A stretch of 20,933 bases of DNA from a virus. Positions 5,535 to 14,388 of the stretch are shown piece after piece. Location of the stretch: positions 1 to 20,933 of IMG/VR virus record IMGVR_UViG_3300031974_001731; one strand, written 5' to 3'. The notes beneath the pieces are model-generated. The model was not told the DNA's origin. It did not search any database and was given only the letters and a program-made list of their open reading frames with translations. A program made the position numbers and the translations under genes. How positions within the stretch are numbered: the stretch's first letter is position 1; every line of letters starts with the position of its first letter.

Positions 5535-5693
5535 TACTACAAGACAAATTTTGCCTTGATGCAGCACCATAAATATAGCTTGACAGAGCTAGAAAACATG
5601 ATCCCTTGGGAACGTGAAATATACGTTACTCTTCTGTCACAATATCTTGAAGACGAGAAACTAAAGGATCAACAGCAGAATGGCATCAGGTAA
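5502..5693 (+). CDS. 51: gp51-like C-terminal extension read by -1 frameshift from gp26
   Basis: After slippage the -1 frame gives 63 residues beginning QLALSHETVESYYK, with ALMQHHKYSLTELENMIPWE further on, ending at TAA 5691-5693. The gp26-gp51 fusion would be 297 aa. The HHxYSLxELxxMPxxE pattern is the one seen in frameshift extensions of tail-assembly chaperones, and the segment corresponds to the short gp51 annotated in cyanophages. A separate start is possible at ATG 5559 (44 aa), but it has no Shine-Dalgarno, and the protein-like sequence extends upstream of it past any start codon. The end overlaps the tape-measure-like gene by 14 bases. Far shorter than T4 gp51 (249 aa). Confidence 0.75.
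   Translation, partial: QLALSHETVESYYKTNFALMQHHKYSLTELENMIPWEREIYVTLLSQYLEDEKLKDQQQNGIR
5569..5575 (+). promoter_or_regulatory. Possible late promoter ATAAATA inside the gp51-like frame
   Basis: ATAAATA, preceded by C, encodes part of the H-H-K-Y segment and lies about 105 nt upstream of the tape-measure-like gene. It has the core of the late element but a longer spacing than the others, so it may be a chance match. Confidence 0.3.
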
Positions 5694-7440
5694 GACTGAC
5701 AATTTAATGACCGCCATTCTGGCACACGGTAAAGATCCCACTACGGGAGAGTATCTTACTGCTGCTCAGAGAAAAGCATTATTTAAAAAATCGCAAATCT
5801 CCGGATCTAAAGTATTTGGAGGTGGTGCTGGTGGTGGTGTTAGAGGTGGTGGAGGAAGAGGAACTGCTATTGCTGGTGGAGCACTAGCATTAAGACAATC
5901 ACCTGGAGAAATAACCAACACTGAGATCAGTCAAAAACTTGATCGTATTCTCTTTCTGATCAAGAAAGATGCTGACACAGAGAAAAAATATAGAGAGGCT
6001 CTTCTAGAGAAGCAGCAAAGAGCAAAAGAAAAAATGCTCAGAGGTTCTGCTGAGCGTGGACTAGAGGGAGCGAATAAAGAGAAAGAAAAGAAGGTTGACA
6101 AGGCTAAGTCTGGGATGAAGGCCCAGATTCCATTCCTTGAAAAACTTGGCAAGTTCTTGTTAATCTATCTTGGTGGATGGGTCACTGATAAACTGATTAA
6201 GATGTTCTCTGCCAAAGCGCAGGGGAACATCACCGCATTCCTTGAATATCGAGATGTACTTATCAATCAACTTGGTAAGTTCTTTGCACCAGTTGCTAAC
6301 ATTGCGAATGGATTTATAAAATGGATTGCCAAAACTACCGCTAGAATTACTGGTTGGGCTGGTAGAATTGGTAAGAAAGTCTTCTCCAAACTCTTTGGGA
6401 TGGTGAGGAATATTGCTATTGGAATGCTCAATAAGATTAAGGACATTGTAAAAAACCCACTAAGGTTTGTCAAAGATCAAGCAGCAAACGCTGCCAAAGC
6501 AGTCCGCAATCAAGCTGGAAAAGTTATTACTGGAACAAAAGCTGCCCTTAGTAAGTTAGTTGCATCGAATCCAGTTCTTGCTAAGGCAGTAGGGGGTGCT
6601 AAAGGATTTTTAACTGGTGCTGGAAAGAAGATACTGGGAGCAGCGGGAACATTAAACAAAGCGGGAACGATGCTTGCCAATCCCGCTAAAGCAATGAAGG
6701 TTCTTATTCCTAAGATCTTTGGAGGAATTGCTGGGAAACTTGGAGGTGCCTTACTTAAGTTAGTTAAGGGTAATATCGGTGCTATTGCTATTGGTTCTAT
6801 CATTGATGTTAGATCAAGATTAGCAGCTGGTAGTTCTCCAACTGAGGCAATCACTATTGGACTACTGAAAGGACTGGCATCTGGTGTTGTTGCTGGAACA
6901 GTTGCAGCTGCATTGAGTGGACCTACATTTGGTCTCGGCGCTTTACCTGGACTACTTCTTGGTGGATTCCTTGGCGATGCTGCAGGAAATCTTCTTGTTG
7001 GCCCACTTGAGGATTGGTTCTCTAAACAACCAAAGAAACAGAATGAATTTGATAAATGGTTCTTGGAAACAATGTCCAAGAGCCCTGGCATTATGCAGAG
7101 TGCTTTTGGTCTTGATACTAGATTCTCGAAAGACTATGCAGCGAAGAATGCTAATGGTGGTCAAAGCATAAAAACACCAACCGAAGGTGGTGCTGGAACT
7201 GGTGATAAAACTAGAGTTGCTCCTGGTGGAGCACTGAAGAACAGTTCTGCTTTAGGTCCAGTAGCTACAACTGCTGCTCCTGCTGTAAATGTTGTTGTTC
7301 CTCCTTCTACTGGAAAACCAGCAGCACCGACTCAGATTCCTCAGAAATCACTGGGAACTGATATTCCTATAATTGAATCAACCAATTACGATAATCCGTA
7401 TTTGGCATTCTCTTATTCCATCTATAACGTCCTAGCATAA
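5680..7440 (+). CDS. Tail tape-measure / baseplate hub protein, gp29-like
   Basis: The 586-aa size is almost that of T4 gp29 (590 aa), the tape measure inside the tail tube. A Gly-rich stretch (residues 45-70) leads to a charged coiled-coil (85-150). A hydrophobic FLLIYLGGWVTDKL segment follows near residue 157, then Ala/Lys-rich helices. Residues 390-450 are strongly hydrophobic and Gly/Ala-rich (VVAGTVAAALSG, GLLLGGFLGDAAGNLL), a membrane-active type seen in tape measures. The C-terminus is Pro/Ala-rich. Position directly after gp26/gp51 with its frameshift matches the chaperone-then-tape-measure order of lambda and P2. Sequence similarity to T4 gp29 could not be confirmed by eye. It ends in a TAATG overlap with the next gene. 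Confidence 0.65.
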   Translation: MASGKTDNLMTAILAHGKDPTTGEYLTAAQRKALFKKSQISGSKVFGGGAGGGVRGGGGRGTAIAGGALALRQSPGEITNTEISQKLDRILFLIKKDADTEKKYREALLEKQQRAKEKMLRGSAERGLEGANKEKEKKVDKAKSGMKAQIPFLEKLGKFLLIYLGGWVTDKLIKMFSAKAQGNITAFLEYRDVLINQLGKFFAPVANIANGFIKWIAKTTARITGWAGRIGKKVFSKLFGMVRNIAIGMLNKIKDIVKNPLRFVKDQAANAAKAVRNQAGKVITGTKAALSKLVASNPVLAKAVGGAKGFLTGAGKKILGAAGTLNKAGTMLANPAKAMKVLIPKIFGGIAGKLGGALLKLVKGNIGAIAIGSIIDVRSRLAAGSSPTEAITIGLLKGLASGVVAGTVAAALSGPTFGLGALPGLLLGGFLGDAAGNLLVGPLEDWFSKQPKKQNEFDKWFLETMSKSPGIMQSAFGLDTRFSKDYAAKNANGGQSIKTPTEGGAGTGDKTRVAPGGALKNSSALGPVATTAAPAVNVVVPPSTGKPAAPTQIPQKSLGTDIPIIESTNYDNPYLAFSYSIYNVLA

Positions 7441-9143
7441 TGGCAGCAATCGTACCATATCGCCCTATTACTAAAACAGGTGGCGGTGGTGCTTTAGTCA
7501 CCGCGAAAAAGGGTGGTGCTCAGGTTTCAAAGACTCTTATTAATATTGAGAAGGTTCTCCAGAACAAGATAAAAGATAAGAGAAAATTCTATGAAAAGCA
7601 GACTAGGATTACTAGACTTGAGAGTGAAACAAAAACGAGAACAGCATCTGAAGCAACATTAGAAAAGGCATCTAAGTTTAGAATGAACCTGTTAGACAAG
7701 GTTCCAAACTTTGCTGTCGATGCGTTTGCCAAGATCATGAACTTCCTTGGCATTTATCTTATTGGGTGGATTACTGATAAGTTACCCAAGATTATAAATG
7801 CAATTAAAGATGTCAACCAAAGAATTCAAAAAATGGGTGACATTGCAAGAAGTCTTGTAACAAGAGGTATTAATATTATTACGGCAATGGGTGGATTGAT
7901 TGCCGCCAAGACAAAACAAATTCTTACTCTTGATTTTGGTGATAAGAGTGGAGATGTAAAGAAAGCCCAAGATACGCTCGATAAAGCATTTGATGATTTG
8001 GAGAGTGATTGGGATGATGGTGTTAAACTTCTAACTGCTCCTCTTGGATCTTTCCCCGTATCTGACGGTAACGATAGTGATCCTACAGGACCTACTGGAC
8101 CTACAACTCCTGTCACTGGAACTGATGCAGAGAAGTATAAAAAGTTTTATGAGATGGCAAAGAAAGCAGGTGCAAAATATCCTGAGTTAGTTGCTGCACA
8201 ATTTGCATTAGAATCTGGATATGGTTCAGCAGTATCTGGTGCTAATAATTATTTTGGATTAAAGGCAACCACATCTGAGTCAGGTGCTTCAATGGGTACT
8301 ACAGAATATTATGATGGTGTGAAGACTCAAACAAGTGCTAAGTTCATGAACTTTGCTAGCGCACAAGATGCAGTCAATACTCTTGTTAATAGATGGTATA
8401 AAGATTATAAGGGATACAAAGGAGTAAATAATCAGAGTAGTGCAGGAGCAGCGGCTGAGCAGTTACAGAGAGAAAGCTATGCTACTGATCCTCGTTATGC
8501 TCAGAAATTGAAAGATATTATGGCAGCCAACAAAGATATTGTTGGTGCTGGTGATGGTTCTGCTAGAAGACAAAAAAATCAAACTCCTGCATATCAACAG
8601 GCAGTAAAAGTAGGTCGTTCATTAGAATCTCAAGGTTATAGAGCATGGCAACACCCTGACTTCAGTGTATACAAAGGATATACTGGATCTGGTATGGAAA
8701 GAGTGATGAGGAGAAGTTACAACTCCTATCACAACTATGGTGAAGCATTGGACTTCCCACTGTCACACAACACTGAAGCACAGTTGAACAAACTTGCTAA
8801 GTATTTCAGTGACAATCGTTCTAAACTGGGTGTTGCTGAACTGAAGTGGAAAGATGATGCTAACCACTTCGATCACCTGCACGTCTCGTTTAAGGGTGGT
8901 GGAAGCGGAATGCTAATGGCCACTGGACCTGATCCCGCAACTGGTCTTGCCCCTGCTGCTCCTAGATCTAATTTTGATATGGCAAAGTTCCGCAGATACC
9001 TGAAAGAAGAGATGGCAAAGGCGGGACAACCAGTTGCTCAACCAAAACAGCAATCTCAACAAAGTTCTGGATCATCTGCTCCGCACATGAATCCAACATC
9101 GAACTTAAATAGTATGTTATTCACTGCATTATCCTTCGTATGA
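7440..9143 (+). CDS. Tape-measure-like protein with glucosaminidase and M15 peptidase domains (tail lysin)
   Basis: The 567-aa protein has three parts. Residues 30-130: a basic coiled-coil and a FLGIYLIGWITDKL segment (near residue 101) shared with the preceding protein. Residues about 230-375: a FlgJ/LytG-like glucosaminidase domain, with catalytic Glu258 in the ALESGYGSA motif and NNYFGLKA following, preceded by a PTGPTGPTTP linker. Residues about 385-485: an M15-like peptidase, with SYHNYGEALD supplying zinc ligands His431 and Asp438, and FDHLHV supplying His479/His481. The C-terminus is Gln/Ser-rich. It should cut both glycan and peptide bonds of host peptidoglycan during tail penetration, a role held in T4 by the gp5 lysozyme domain. 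It overlaps gp27 by ATGA. Confidence 0.85.
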   Translation: MAAIVPYRPITKTGGGGALVTAKKGGAQVSKTLINIEKVLQNKIKDKRKFYEKQTRITRLESETKTRTASEATLEKASKFRMNLLDKVPNFAVDAFAKIMNFLGIYLIGWITDKLPKIINAIKDVNQRIQKMGDIARSLVTRGINIITAMGGLIAAKTKQILTLDFGDKSGDVKKAQDTLDKAFDDLESDWDDGVKLLTAPLGSFPVSDGNDSDPTGPTGPTTPVTGTDAEKYKKFYEMAKKAGAKYPELVAAQFALESGYGSAVSGANNYFGLKATTSESGASMGTTEYYDGVKTQTSAKFMNFASAQDAVNTLVNRWYKDYKGYKGVNNQSSAGAAAEQLQRESYATDPRYAQKLKDIMAANKDIVGAGDGSARRQKNQTPAYQQAVKVGRSLESQGYRAWQHPDFSVYKGYTGSGMERVMRRSYNSYHNYGEALDFPLSHNTEAQLNKLAKYFSDNRSKLGVAELKWKDDANHFDHLHVSFKGGGSGMLMATGPDPATGLAPAAPRSNFDMAKFRRYLKEEMAKAGQPVAQPKQQSQQSSGSSAPHMNPTSNLNSMLFTALSFV

Positions 9144-10462
9144 CTGCAGCACAACAATCCGCAACTTACAAAACAATAAACATCGAGTCGAATGACAAGA
9201 AGAATGTCATCGATATTCGTAATGGTGTTATTGCGTTTGCATATTACGAGGATATCTTTTCTCCCACTGTTACCGCTAAGATGATCATTACAACATCTGG
9301 AGATGTTGTTAATGGGACTGGATTGTACAATGGACTTCCTGTCAGGGGAGGAGAAAGAGTACAGATAGCCATTGACACTAGAAAGGGATCTGGGTTAAGA
9401 TGGGATGATAGTAGTGAATATCTTCACGTCGGAAAGATCAGTGACGTATCTGCTACTAACCAAAAGGAAACGATGACTCTTCATCTTGTTTCCAAAGAAG
9501 CAATCAAGAATGAGACGAGTAGAGTTTATAGAAAGTATGAGGGATCAGCCAGAATCTCAGAGAACGTCAAAAAGATTATGTCTGAGGTTATACAAACGAA
9601 CGTTCCTTTTGACGTTGATGATACACAAAACAAGTATGGGTTTATAGGAAACAGCAGGAAACCTTTTACTGTTCTTCAATCACTTGCTGCTAAGTCTGTA
9701 TCAGGAAAGACTGAGAAAGACGCATCGGCTGGATATGTGTTCTATCAAACAAAGAGTGGATTCAAGTTTAAGTCGATCGACGGACTCATCGCTGAAGATT
9801 CTGTAGCATCATTTGTATACACTGATGCAAACACTAGTTCTACTAGTGAGGATACAAGTAATAGAATCCTGAAGTATAAGACAACAACCAATACAAATCT
9901 TCTTGCGAAGTTGAGAACTGGTCAGTTTGCATCGTATCGAGTCTACTGGAATCCTTTGACATTCCAGTTTACAAGTCCCGACATTGGTATCTTTACTAGA
10001 GAGGATTACCTGACTGGAGTTAGAAACTTAGGTCAAGAGATGGTTTTGCCTGAAGTAGAAGATGCTTACGGACAAAAGATTAGTCTCGGTGAGATTCCTT
10101 CCAGAATCATTACTGGAGTTCAAGACATTGGAACTCTAGGAGAAAAGAATGATAAGAGTGCTAACGCTGATCCTGGTAAGTATCACTCTCAATCGTTGAT
10201 GAGATATAATTCTCTGTTCACTCAACAGGTCAAGATGGTTATTCCATGTAACACAAATCTTGAGGCTGGGAACGTAATTAAGTGTTCATTCCCGTCAGTA
10301 ACTACTAACTCAAAGAAGCAGAATGAACCAGACCCTGTTCAAAGTGGACTATATATGATTAAGGATTTGTGTCATTATTTCCAAGGACAACAATCGTACA
10401 CCTATCTGACACTAGTCCGTGATACAATAGGATTGTATACTCCAAACAATACAGAAAACTAA
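9140..10462 (+). CDS. 27: Baseplate central hub protein gp27-like
   Basis: The 440-aa protein is read as gp27, the trimeric hub ring that holds gp5 and links it to the tail tube (T4 version 391 aa). Evidence includes an N-terminal beta domain (YEDIFSPTVTAKMIITTSGDVV, LPVRGGERVQIAIDT), a second strand set (LHLVSKEAIKNETSRVYRKYEG), a helical SENVKKIMSEVIQ and a hub-type FTVLQSLAAKSV...GYVFYQTKSGFKF block. This order (YEDIFSP, LPVRGGE, VSKE, S..V..I, PF..L..LA, Y.F.....GFKF) is the gp27/P2-gpD/VgrG hub pattern. It overlaps the lysin gene by 4 bases and is followed at once (TAA-ATG) by cp12, with gp5 next. Confidence 0.8.
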   Translation: MTAAQQSATYKTINIESNDKKNVIDIRNGVIAFAYYEDIFSPTVTAKMIITTSGDVVNGTGLYNGLPVRGGERVQIAIDTRKGSGLRWDDSSEYLHVGKISDVSATNQKETMTLHLVSKEAIKNETSRVYRKYEGSARISENVKKIMSEVIQTNVPFDVDDTQNKYGFIGNSRKPFTVLQSLAAKSVSGKTEKDASAGYVFYQTKSGFKFKSIDGLIAEDSVASFVYTDANTSSTSEDTSNRILKYKTTTNTNLLAKLRTGQFASYRVYWNPLTFQFTSPDIGIFTREDYLTGVRNLGQEMVLPEVEDAYGQKISLGEIPSRIITGVQDIGTLGEKNDKSANADPGKYHSQSLMRYNSLFTQQVKMVIPCNTNLEAGNVIKCSFPSVTTNSKKQNEPDPVQSGLYMIKDLCHYFQGQQSYTYLTLVRDTIGLYTPNNTEN

Positions 10463-10675
10463 ATGGAAAACATCGAAGCACACATTGAGAAGGATAAGAA
10501 AATTCTCGATGATCCTACTATTTCCCCTCAGATGCGCCGTCATACTGAAGGAGAACTAAAAGAATTGGAAGCATACGCTGAGCGTCATCCAGAAGATCAT
10601 CACGATCCCTCCTCCCTGGAACTGTATTGTGATGCTAACCCTGAAGCACCTGAGTGTTTAGTTTACGACGACTGA
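10463..10675 (+). CDS. cp12: CP12-like Calvin-cycle inhibitor
   Basis: The 70-aa product has the CP12 C-terminal signature: SLELYCDANPEAPECLVYDD, with Cys56 and Cys65 separated by eight residues as in cyanobacterial CP12, and the final YDD that enters the GAPDH active site. The N-terminal cysteine pair of host CP12 is absent. The N-terminal helix (IEAHIEKDKKIL...RRHTEGELKELEAYAERH) differs from the host AWDAVEE core and looks phage-type. CP12 bridges GAPDH and phosphoribulokinase and shuts the Calvin cycle; phage copies are thought to favour the pentose phosphate pathway and NADPH for nucleotide synthesis. It sits with no gap after gp27 and 5 bases before gp5, inside the hub operon. Its three arginines all use CGN. 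Confidence 0.87.
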   Translation: MENIEAHIEKDKKILDDPTISPQMRRHTEGELKELEAYAERHPEDHHDPSSLELYCDANPEAPECLVYDD

Positions 10676-10680
10676 TATAA

Positions 10681-12825
10681 ATGTCACTAGAGGAATTTGG
10701 TAGTTTACAAAGTAACTTCGTAGGAAGAGACGGATTCCGTTGGTGGATCGGTCAAGTAGCCCCTGGTGAGATAAGAGACACCTGGGGTAATAGAGTCCGT
10801 GTGCGTATCATGGGCTACCATCCTTTCAGCGAGAAAGAACTACCAAATGATAAACTTCCTTATGCAAACATTCTCCTAAGCACTACTGGTGGTAGTGGTG
10901 GCGCTGGAAACTATTCCAGTCATATGCTTAGACCTGGAGATGTTGTATTTGGATTCTTCCTTGATGGTGATAATGCACAACTCCCTTGTATCAATGGAGT
11001 TTTTGGTAAAACTGATGAGGTAACTAAACTAGCATCTGCAAATTATAAGTCACCTTTCGCACCTTACAGTGGAAAGACTGACAAGATGAAGCCTGCTCAC
11101 AACAGGATTGCTGATAAGGCAACAGAAGTTAAGAGTGGTGCTGATCCTAAAACTGCATCTGATCCTTCAGAGACTGGAGAACAGGGAACTGCTGCACCTA
11201 AGACGCCATCTAATACAAAGAAAGGTTCTGACGGCGTAGAGGCTGATAACAGAGCGAACGGAACTTGTGTCAAACTTGCTGACGCATGTAAGGACAATCC
11301 ATTATCCGAACTGATGGATGTTCTGGACAATCTTATGACTAAACTGGATAAGATTGGCGCAGCAGCTGCTAATATTCAGAAAGAAATCAACAAGGTTCTA
11401 AACTTAATCCAAGACATTGGTGGAAACTTTGTACAGAGTGCTATTGGTGCATTGTTTGGTGAACTGGAAGGAGTTTTGGCAACTGGTCTAGACGCACTGT
11501 TTAACTCAGTATTTGCCACTACTATGGCAGCGACTGCTGGTAACTTCCCTGTATCTTATGCTGCTGGAGTTGCAGCACAGGCGGCGCAGATCCCCCTCAT
11601 TGAGAGTTTCCAAGACGCATTACAATGTGTTGGAAATAAGATCGTAACGGGTCTTAAAGAGGCAGCAAGAGGACTCTTAGAGTCTTTTATTGATAACATT
11701 CTAGACGTAACTCAGTGTGCTGTTGAAGCATACGCTGGAAGTTTCCTCGCTGACATTGTTAAGCAACTCTCTGATGGTTTGGCTAAACCACTTGAGGCAC
11801 TGAACAAGATTCTTGGACCTGTCTTTACTGTAATTGGTTTCCTTCAGAGTGCTGGCGGTGCATTCAAATCTATTCTTGCCTTCCTTGATTGTGGTCAGGG
11901 TGAAGCATGTGCAGAGATCAAGAAGTGGTGCATTGGATCTGGCCCAGAGAAATCAAAAGATGATGACGAGAAGGAAAAGAAACAGGAAGGTGAGAGAGAA
12001 GATAACGGAGAACCTGCATCTGGGGATAAAGAAGAACCCAGCATGTTTGACAGGGTAGCAGATAAACTGGGATCATTTAATCTCGGCACAGATAATATAT
12101 CTTCTGAAGGACTTCTCAAAGGTATTACTGGAAATCCAAATCTTCAAGTTAGACAATCTCAAGGATGTTATGCGGGTGATGCATCTGCCCTCCCCTGCGG
12201 TAGACCACAGGTAGAGTTTCTTGGTGGTGGTGGATTCGGTGCTGTTGCTAAAGCATTTGTTGGCAACTTCATTCAAGAAACTGATGGTTTGGGCGCAGCC
12301 GTGTCTGATACTGTCGGTGCTGCTAATCAGTTAGGTGGAATTATTGGATTCCAGATTGAAGATCCTGGACAAGGTTATGCATATCCTCCCCTCGTTAAGA
12401 TTAAAGATCAATGTAAGCGAGGATTTGGTGCGGTATGTAAAGCAACGCTGAATGATAATGGAGGAATCGCATCAATTTACGTTGTTTCTTCTGGTGATGG
12501 TTACACTCTTGATCCATCCCAAGGTACTCTTGGTGTTGTAGACGTTGAAATTGTTAATGGTGGAATTGGATATGGTGATGAGACTGTAGTTACTGATGAT
12601 CTTGGAAACAGATATGATGTAACTATTGTAGATGGACAAATTCGTAGAGTTAAACCAATAAGTGTTAATTCTGTAGTAGTCAATCCAACTCTGAACGTTG
12701 AAGGTGATGGTAGTGGTGCTAACTTGGCACCAGTTGTAAGTGATATAATTATAGATGGTACGGGTGAAGTCCTGTATGTCAAGGATTGTGTGGGATCACC
12801 TTTTGAGGTACTGAGGATTCAATAA
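10681..12825 (+). CDS. 5: gp5-like baseplate hub protein with OB-fold, no lysozyme domain
   Basis: The 714-aa protein begins with the gp5 OB-fold: residues 15-115 read RWWIGQVAPGEIRDTWGNRV, then VRIMGYHPF, LPYANILLS, LRPGDVVFGFFLDGDNAQLPCINGVFG. The T4 lysozyme domain that follows in gp5 is absent; instead there is a polar linker (140-195) and a long Ala/Leu-rich helical region (205-415). An acidic Lys/Glu stretch (about 420-460) precedes a C-terminal beta domain with repeated GxGY turns (PGQGY near 562, GDGY near 604, GIGY near 628). The C-terminal beta-helix of T4 gp5 is also missing and appears to be the next gene. TAATG overlap with that gene. Confidence 0.85.
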   Translation: MSLEEFGSLQSNFVGRDGFRWWIGQVAPGEIRDTWGNRVRVRIMGYHPFSEKELPNDKLPYANILLSTTGGSGGAGNYSSHMLRPGDVVFGFFLDGDNAQLPCINGVFGKTDEVTKLASANYKSPFAPYSGKTDKMKPAHNRIADKATEVKSGADPKTASDPSETGEQGTAAPKTPSNTKKGSDGVEADNRANGTCVKLADACKDNPLSELMDVLDNLMTKLDKIGAAAANIQKEINKVLNLIQDIGGNFVQSAIGALFGELEGVLATGLDALFNSVFATTMAATAGNFPVSYAAGVAAQAAQIPLIESFQDALQCVGNKIVTGLKEAARGLLESFIDNILDVTQCAVEAYAGSFLADIVKQLSDGLAKPLEALNKILGPVFTVIGFLQSAGGAFKSILAFLDCGQGEACAEIKKWCIGSGPEKSKDDDEKEKKQEGEREDNGEPASGDKEEPSMFDRVADKLGSFNLGTDNISSEGLLKGITGNPNLQVRQSQGCYAGDASALPCGRPQVEFLGGGGFGAVAKAFVGNFIQETDGLGAAVSDTVGAANQLGGIIGFQIEDPGQGYAYPPLVKIKDQCKRGFGAVCKATLNDNGGIASIYVVSSGDGYTLDPSQGTLGVVDVEIVNGGIGYGDETVVTDDLGNRYDVTIVDGQIRRVKPISVNSVVVNPTLNVEGDGSGANLAPVVSDIIIDGTGEVLYVKDCVGSPFEVLRIQ

Positions 12826-13358
12826 TGGCAGAGTCAAAAGAAAGAAGAATCATTGCCAATAAAGGCCCGAACTATAAGGTAGACATCAATAATCCCCAGT
12901 CTGGTGGATTTGGACCTGAAGTTGCGAAGGTGATGGCTATCACCGATGAGGGTGAAGTCTTTATTCATTCATTATCTCAAGACGGAACAGTAAGAATCGT
13001 CGTTGACAAGACGATGGAAGTTACTGCTGGCGAAGATAATGATGAAGGACAGATTGATATGGTTATCAACTGCATGAATGGTGATATTTGTATCAACGCT
13101 ATCTCTGGTCAGGTAAGAATCAAAGGTAGAGATATTGTTCTAGAGGCTGGTAGAGATCTAACTCTCAAAGCAGGAAGAAACCTGAACCTAAAAGGAAAAG
13201 CAAAAGTAGATATTGATGGCAACAAAGTTCAGGCAACTGGTAAAGCAGGAAACCTGATACAGGCAATGAAAGAGACATTTGTACAGAAAGTTGCTGCTAC
13301 AACTAAACTTGGTCCTGGCATTCTGCTTGAGATCGGCAAAACACTCATCAATAGATAG
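12825..13358 (+). CDS. Beta-helix needle protein (gp5 C-terminal domain / VgrG tip-like)
   Basis: The 177-aa protein carries short repeats that suggest a triple-stranded beta-helix: GDICINAISGQVRIKG, then RDIVLEAGRDLTLKAGRNLNLKG, then KAKVDIDG, with valine/isoleucine/leucine alternating at about 8-residue spacing between residues 80 and 135. This is the architecture of the T4 gp5 C-terminal spike and VgrG needles. It is coupled to the OB-fold hub gene by TAATG, which supports the idea that gp5 is divided into two polypeptides here. The C-terminal 40 residues are helical and Gly-containing. Confidence 0.75.
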   Translation: MAESKERRIIANKGPNYKVDINNPQSGGFGPEVAKVMAITDEGEVFIHSLSQDGTVRIVVDKTMEVTAGEDNDEGQIDMVINCMNGDICINAISGQVRIKGRDIVLEAGRDLTLKAGRNLNLKGKAKVDIDGNKVQATGKAGNLIQAMKETFVQKVAATTKLGPGILLEIGKTLINR

Positions 13359-13360
13359 TC

Positions 13361-13960
13361 ATGCCACAGTTTGAAACACGATACCCAAACATTGAGAATC
13401 CTGATGGACTTTTGGGACCGGAGGTTATTGTCAAGAAGACAACATTTATTCAACCTGTTACTGGCGTTGATCCTCAGGGACCTGATGATTATATAACTAA
13501 AAAATACTATGAAAACAATACTCCTGAGCAGGCTGTTCAGATGCCTCTTGGTGGTATTATCATGTGGTCTGGGGCTATTGCTGATATTCCAGATAAATGG
13601 CATTTATGTGATGGCACAATTGTAAATGACATACAAACACCAGACTTAAGAGGTAGATTTCTTGTTGGTGCTGGTTCTGACGCTGGTACTGGCGTAACAT
13701 TTGATGCTGTAACTGGTGCTGTAAGTGGTCAATATGCTCCTGGTGATACTGGTGGTGAAGTTGCTCACCTGTTGACCGTTGCTGAAATGCCCTCTCACGC
13801 TCACTCTTATCAGGCTCCTGTTGCTGGTCGAGTCACCACAGGTTCTAACGTGGACATTCGGGCCCAGACGCCTTCTACGACGGGTAGTGCTGGTGGCGAC
13901 AACTACCACGAGAACAGACCTCCATACTATGCTGTCGCCTGGATCATGAAAGTGGCTTGA
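13361..13960 (+). CDS. Phage tail collar domain fibre protein
   Basis: The 199-aa protein has a clear tail collar domain (the short tail fibre/Mdp family, Pfam PF07484): PLGGIIMWSG near residue 63, then IPDKWHLCDG, TPDLRGRFLVGAGSDAG, GDTGGEVAHLLTVAEMPSHAHSY, and the closing HENRPPYYAVAWIMKV. Residues 1-60 form an attachment region without clear similarity. Such proteins make short fibres that contact the host surface. The region after PSHAHSY is richer in G/C and uses CGA/CGG arginine codons, which may reflect exchange of a receptor-binding tip. It closes the gp54-to-collar operon; its stop overlaps the next promoter. Confidence 0.9.
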   Translation: MPQFETRYPNIENPDGLLGPEVIVKKTTFIQPVTGVDPQGPDDYITKKYYENNTPEQAVQMPLGGIIMWSGAIADIPDKWHLCDGTIVNDIQTPDLRGRFLVGAGSDAGTGVTFDAVTGAVSGQYAPGDTGGEVAHLLTVAEMPSHAHSYQAPVAGRVTTGSNVDIRAQTPSTTGSAGGDNYHENRPPYYAVAWIMKVA

Positions 13961-13985
13961 CGAGACCCTCTGCTCGTGCTATAAT
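13957..13985 (+). promoter_or_regulatory. Strong sigma70 promoter of the accessory islet
   Basis: TTGACG (13957-13962), a 17-nt spacer, and TATAAT (13980-13985) with extended-10 TG at 13977-13978. The -35 overlaps the TGA of the collar gene. This should drive the 64-aa gene, the Phd-like gene, tRNA-Leu and pebS early in infection by host RNA polymerase, with transcription starting near 13992. Confidence 0.85.
13960..13977 (+). repeat. Inverted repeat within the promoter spacer
   Basis: ACGAG (13960-13964) and CTCGT (13973-13977) are reverse complements separated by 8 bases, filling the space between -35 and -10. No T-run follows, so it is not a good terminator. It could be an operator for a repressor. 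Confidence 0.45.
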
Positions 13986-14011: not shown

Positions 14012-14206
14012 ATGCCTGAGCAACTCCTTGAATCCGTCGCCATCGACGTTTGCACCCGCTCTATTCTGCTGACTGCTGATGACGGTAGCGAGAAGATGGT
14101 TGAATGTGACACTGTTGACGAGTTCATGAACGTTCTTGATTTCATTCGCGCTATTGTTCCCGATGACCGTATTGTTTATGCCGAGGTGGCAACTACCCTG
14201 CGATGA
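14012..14206 (+). CDS. 64-aa hypothetical protein
   Basis: No function is recognised. The protein is acidic, with strand-like segments (SVAIDVCTRSILLTADDGSEKMVEC) followed by a helix (VDEFMNVLDFIRAIV) and a DDRIVYAEV strand, giving a small alpha/beta fold. I believe similar short proteins are common in marine T4-like phages, but this was not checked. It is first in the islet behind the sigma70 promoter, with a leader of about 20 nt. Its stop overlaps the next ATG (ATGA). Arginines use CGN only (4 of 4), as in gp32 and cp12. Confidence 0.75.
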   Translation: MPEQLLESVAIDVCTRSILLTADDGSEKMVECDTVDEFMNVLDFIRAIVPDDRIVYAEVATTLR

Positions 14207-14388
14207 TTACAATTAGTATCCAAGAGTTTGAAGAAAAGTTTGAAGAGTATGTAGACAGGGCTGGTGAGGGAGAATCTTTCCTCATCCAGAATCCTGGGGG
14301 TAACTTAATCTTAGTACCACATGATGATTACTGTGATGCAGAGTTAAAGAACCTTTATTGTACAGGCACTAATTGTGCTGATGGATAA
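14203..14388 (+). CDS. Phd/YefM-like antitoxin-fold protein (orphan)
   Basis: The 61-aa product resembles the N-terminal domain of Phd/YefM antitoxins: MITISIQEFEEKFEEYVDRAGEGESFLIQ is followed by a strand, NLILVPHDDY, matching the family pattern (sVsefr..l..ll..v..gE...I...g....vlvp..dy). Antitoxins of this type repress their own promoter and neutralise a partner toxin. No toxin gene is adjacent, and the usual toxin-binding tail is short, with Cys residues near the end (LYCTGTNCADG). It overlaps the 64-aa gene by ATGA, and its TAA is followed immediately by tRNA-Leu. A DNA-binding regulatory role, or neutralisation of a host toxin, is inference. Confidence 0.6.
   Translation: MITISIQEFEEKFEEYVDRAGEGESFLIQNPGGNLILVPHDDYCDAELKNLYCTGTNCADG

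Follow-up and report, generated by a model that had tools for sequence, protein, structure and literature searches.

Why a gene for CP12, a metabolic regulator, should lie among the baseplate hub genes of a virus of ocean cyanobacteria, and when in infection its product would be made, are the questions raised by the 20,933-nucleotide stretch of DNA analysed here (the window; IMG/VR record IMGVR_UViG_3300031974_001731). The gene, cp12, is an open reading frame at positions 10463–10675 of the plus strand, and its 70-residue translation ends in LELYCDANPEAPECLVYDD. It stands directly between a T4-GC 15 type gene for a baseplate/tail protein at the gp27 position (9140–10462, 440 aa; phrog_350, 346.6 bits) and gp5, which encodes the baseplate hub subunit and tail lysozyme (10681–12825, 714 aa; phrog_1922, 372.9 bits), both on the same strand as cp12. 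The TAA of the upstream gene abuts the ATG of cp12 directly and five bases (TATAA) separate cp12 from gp5; these coordinates and family matches uphold the hub-operon placement given in a preliminary description of the locus. The name gp27 follows from position and from T4-GC 15 synteny with S-SSM7, Syn19 and P-HM2, and a Pfam search of this protein matched no model.

The same packed plus-strand run includes, upstream, a muramidase/endolysin-type reading frame (7440–9143; Pfam glucosaminidase, 64.6 bits, and phrog endolysin families), and continues beyond gp5 with a 177 aa reading frame that overlaps gp5 by one base (12825–13358; phrog_3363) and, as its final gene, a tail collar-type reading frame (13361–13960; Pfam Collar, 24.7 bits). 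The C-terminal stretch of the muramidase product resembles D-Ala-D-Ala carboxypeptidase, a resemblance that Pfam did not confirm. Elsewhere in the window, a 44 aa reading frame at 5559–5692 matches the baseplate hub assembly catalyst gp51 (phrog_634). Just after the hub run, at 13957–13985, lies a sigma70-like promoter that surpasses all others in the region (TTGACG-17-TATAAT, with an extended -10) and that precedes a group comprising DUF7294, a Phd antitoxin, tRNA-Leu and a ferredoxin oxidoreductase; the antitoxin frame (14203–14388) is of the Phd/YefM type, and no toxin partner was seen adjoining it.

That the gene encodes CP12, as had been proposed, is borne out by its matches to Pfam CP12 (PF02672; 52.3 bits against a cut-off of 22.7, 1e-13, residues 2–69), to phrog_627 (2.6e-35) and, in a phmmer search of the PDB, to the CP12 polypeptide of the 6gfo/6gve group (7.7e-6). 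Its only two cysteines, C56 and C65, form the C-x8-C signature, and the YDD end is present as Y68, D69 and D70. The N-terminal Cys pair is absent from the translation, as is the AWD_VEE core, in whose place stands EGELKELEAYAERHP. A member of the CP12 family need not have the N-terminal pair, and certain accepted variants have no such core either; forms with a single Cys pair have been described from phages and cyanobacteria (PMC3906501). Since this protein occurs in 362 annotated cyanophage records, and dN/dS against the nearest relatives is 0.03–0.10, the finding is not one of chance, and purifying selection acts on the gene. No second copy per genome was found in the 19 records searched, and the 362 records represent 362 places.

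The preliminary description had singled out the missing Cys pair; the absence itself stands, but it does not set the phage protein apart. The 80 genome-contig CP12 loci fetched with the phage alignment (71 of the 72 aa cellular type and nine of a 75 aa phage-like type) all have exactly two cysteines, both belonging to the C-terminal pair, and host CP12 is likewise without the AWD_VEE core. A loss by the phage was rejected, because picocyanobacterial hosts also have no such pair, and its absence is, judging by these sequences, a trait of picocyanobacterial CP12. Some of the 75 aa phage-like proteins come from genome records titled Nonlabens, Euryarchaeota, Rhodopirellula and Anaerolineales, and one of the cellular type from a record titled Bifidobacterium breve (all among L189–L194, L196, L200 and L220); the contigs under these non-cyanobacterial titles are probably misbinned or contaminating. 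To judge from its family, the phage protein would use the disulfide loop and YDD tail at its C terminus to bind host GAPDH, thereby helping to close down the Calvin cycle in infection; it probably inhibits host GAPDH/PRK, switching off carbon fixation.

The location of the gene had been presented as an oddity, a view that comparison of the junction across cyanophages overturns. In a survey of 174 cp12 loci including the window, a non-random sample made up of isolates together with the 80 top-ranking relatives each of the window's protein and of the P-HM2 protein, 98 have the direct order gp27-cp12-gp5 and a further 43 have it with an insert before gp5; the rest comprise 16 loci outside the hub, 11 unresolved and six partial ones that are cut. 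The hub junction is thus the commonest home of cp12 in cyanomyoviruses. Among isolates, the direct junction is found in S-RSM4, S-WAM2, S-H9-1, S-T4, S-CAM9 and S-SSM7, while cpeT, tRNA or other genes separate cp12 from gp5 in Syn9, Syn19, S-RIM8, S-B64 and S-H25; isolates of at least six genera carry cp12 between gp27 and gp5. In S-SM1 and S-SSM5 the gene is found near 14 kb. Sullivan et al. (2010) had already put cp12 "near gp5" (PMC3037559), and the window adds one more unremarkable case to an arrangement already on record.

Although the placement was already known, the pattern of promoter motifs in front of cp12 in these relatives is new here. The published late motif of cyanophages is NATAAATA (PMC2984593); we used the slightly wider form [ACT]TAAATA, 18–48 nt before the start codon, with expectations taken from first-order shuffles and shared descent handled through clustering only. 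When calibrated on P-HM2, this motif preceded 11/45 structural genes and 2/25 replication genes, and was met at 1.4% of random positions. At the hub-direct loci it stands before cp12 in 38/76 cases (expected 1.7), before gp5 in 8/75 and before gp27 in 18/71; at the loci with an insert it precedes cp12 in 26/29 (expected 0.45), cpeT in 1/27 and gp5 in 26/28. Outside the hub the count is 8/10 for cp12, 0/4 for talC, 0/5 for phoH and 0/9 for thyX. The cp12 motif forms a sharp peak at -40 to -21 and is sparse in the remainder of the 660 nt upstream; its enrichment persists after clustering at 90% identity (26/57 hub-direct, 15/17 hub-insert and 6/8 outside-hub clusters) and also at 80%. Relatives usually carry what looks like a T4-type late promoter 20–48 bases before cp12, be it in the hub or in the psbA/talC module; in Syn9, for one, CTAAATA precedes the gene. 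Among 72 hub-direct loci, the motif preceded cp12 alone in 36, gp27 alone in 13, both in four and neither in 19, and this mutual avoidance has a Fisher P of 0.004, uncorrected for relatedness.

The window belongs with the loci that have the motif before gp27. A motif scan found no late-promoter motif before its cp12, and the clade to which it belongs is likewise without one there, having instead a conserved TTAAATA before gp27. This motif (9105–9111, plus strand) lies 35 nt before gp27 and within the 3' end of the muramidase gene, and despite that position the surrounding TAAATAGTATG is identical in all six clade members; no other candidate late promoter lies closer to cp12 on its upstream side. 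Several late genes of the window (gp48, gp4, a 1721 aa tail gene and others) have CTAAATA or a similar sequence 24–37 nt before them, and a search for terminator-like sites on the plus strand between 9105 and 12940 found none. The sequence TATAAATG over the start of gp5 (10676–10683) was considered as a promoter for gp5 and rejected, because its first base is five nt before the start codon, and late motifs elsewhere lie 24–37 nt before theirs; five members of the six-member clade keep it, and the sixth (L032) has TATAGATG.

We propose that late transcription would start at the T4-type promoter at 9105–9111 and run through gp27, cp12 and gp5, with the translation of cp12 coupled to the termination of gp27 through the TAA-ATG junction. 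The window's cp12 would then probably be read as the second gene of the late gp27 transcript. The whole explanation, in which a picocyanobacterial-type, GAPDH-binding CP12 is made from a late transcript on which cp12 comes second, after gp27 and before gp5, is in our judgement rather more probable than the alternatives taken together. The preliminary description had stated that cp12 has no promoter of its own, which is true of the clade around the window and of roughly half the hub-direct loci and fails for the gene in general, where a late motif is usual. It had also offered a choice between late synthesis and an unrecognised internal start. The clade carries its conserved motif before gp27 and relatives usually carry a late motif before cp12 itself; therefore late synthesis is the better-supported of the two, by motif evidence only. 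The sigma70-like site inside the end of gp27 is weak.

That internal start is nonetheless the most durable competitor. It would make cp12 a middle gene, transcribed from a sigma70-type promoter in the last codons of gp27 besides any late read-through, and we regard it as possible but unlikely. The candidate, CTGACA-16-TAGGAT (10406–10433, plus strand), scores just 9/12, although the nearest relative, L007, has TTGACA in the -35 position (10/12); L008 and L032 have not kept this -35. Sites scoring at least 10/12 in the 150 nt before cp12 do exceed expectation at 13/79 hub-direct loci (expected 4.1), 11/35 hub-insert loci (expected 1.4) and 6/12 loci outside the hub (expected 0.6), yet in the window's own region the 28 sigma70-like sites found are near the shuffle expectation (mean 20.5, sd 4.2). 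In its favour, synonymous identity is raised in the 3' end of gp27, and within the clade no synonymous site of GTCCGTGATACAATAGGA varies. Against this, the invariant six-codon run has a P of 0.01 within the last 40 codons and of 0.13 anywhere in gp27, codons 140–160 are more conserved than this end region, and the block coincides with the conserved R-D-[ST] end of the protein. Host-like promoters were reportedly found for middle genes in a study of Syn9.

Also on the side of the internal promoter, and against the late reading, is expression of the gene in P-HM2, whose metabolic genes, cp12 among them, all fell into the middle cluster by RNA-seq (PMC5082946). The premise of the preliminary description that metabolic genes of cyanophages act early is to that extent backed, for this one phage and for the middle cluster only, and P-HM2 keeps its cp12 outside the hub. 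The P-HM2 gene is middle-expressed in spite of an ATAAATA at -31, a late motif that overlaps a sigma70-like -35 (TTGACATAAATA); an overlap of this kind has been proposed for middle expression (PMC2984593). The 19 of 72 hub-direct loci with a motif before neither gp27 nor cp12 also count against the late reading. S-RSM4, for its part, is reported to halt host CO2 fixation at ~2 h, as compared with ~4 h for S-PM2, which is without cp12 (PMC10452541). Such an early stop need not wait for late genes, and it is no argument that settles late synthesis either way. What the present analysis adds is evidence on timing from the motifs, which favours the late reading of the window's cp12 and is not proof of it.

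A second alternative holds that the placement has no regulatory meaning, the neighbourhood of gp5 being an insertion hot spot where cp12 is found because cassettes land there. "Near gp5 with tRNAs" was called a hot spot by Sullivan et al. (PMC3037559); cpeT, 2OG, tRNA and other genes are inserted between cp12 and gp5 in the 43 loci noted above, and the gp27-gp5 junction of P-HM2 is closed cleanly without cp12. The gene is also mobile. Fifteen of the 16 outside-hub loci are near psbA, psbD, talC, thyX or phoH (the other is before baseplate wedge genes), and in a tree of cp12 DNA the hub and outside-hub copies interleave, with eight changes between the two by parsimony and at least five forced by well-supported branches, root and direction not being fixed. 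cp12 has moved several times between the hub operon and photosynthesis/carbon modules. The closest case is that of L005 and L006, whose cp12, with DNA 88% identical to the window's, sits in a run of psbA-psbD-cp12-2OG oxygenase-phoH; since a hairpin and then a T run (985–1030 in L006, and the same stretch in L005) come directly before CTAAATA and cp12, the gene looks insulated there from upstream transcription. However, unlike cpeT or talC, cp12 is preceded by a late-type motif both in and out of the hub, and the direct junction is maintained even across gp27 proteins that are only ~30% alike, so that we consider the hot-spot account improbable. A third alternative, very improbable, is that the protein has given up metabolic regulation and now serves as a component of the virion or in hub assembly; the neighbourhood and late-type motifs that speak for it are outweighed by the invariance of the GAPDH-binding loop residues (C56, E64, C65, Y68, D70) across placements, by the 96% identical sequences encoded in the psbA/psbD module of L005 and L006, and by the interleaving of hub and outside-hub copies.

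The current view of CP12 in cyanophages is that it diverts the carbon flux of the host to nucleotide synthesis, which is a need of the middle stage of infection. It is about an even bet that most cyanomyoviruses supply cp12, wherever the gene lies, with its own T4-type late promoter (in many cases with a sigma70-type site farther upstream), the virus thus being built to keep making, or to boost, an inhibitor of the Calvin cycle during virion assembly, and that the window's clade has the promoter before gp27 and reads cp12 within the hub transcript. If late promoters do drive most copies of cp12, the inhibitor would act, or still act, when energy feeds virion proteins, and the modelled time at which carbon fixation ceases in infected cells would change. 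As the hub and the psbA/talC module are two natural arrangements within one gene family, the timing is directly testable.

Among named systems, S-RSM4 (FM207411), S-WAM2, S-H9-1, S-T4, S-CAM9 and S-SSM7 share the window's gene order, orientation and short gaps, and both junctions of S-T4 are about equal in tightness to those of the window. S-RSM4, S-WAM2, S-H9-1 and S-CAM9 differ in that their cp12 is preceded at -26 to -29 by a late-type motif, and the first three of these also have GGAGG before its start codon; the window has neither. The CP12 of P-HM2 (T4-GC 337) is of the same family and 66% identical to the window's, whereas its gene lies before talC in the psbA/psbD region, outside the hub, and the gp27-gp5 junction of that phage is empty, with no gap. 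The CP12 proteins of Prochlorococcus and Synechococcus/Cyanobium resemble the phage's in having C-x8-C and YDD and no N-terminal Cys pair, and are ~51–60% identical to it over the whole length, being products of a cellular gene of 72 aa as against 70 aa in the window. The two-Cys-pair CP12 proteins of Thermosynechococcus and plants (PDB 6gfo/6gve, 6kez) possess the N-terminal pair and the AWD_VEE core that the phage protein is missing, both being features of the classical GAPDH/CP12/PRK complex (PMC3906501), and yet their C-terminal GAPDH-binding part aligns with that of the phage.
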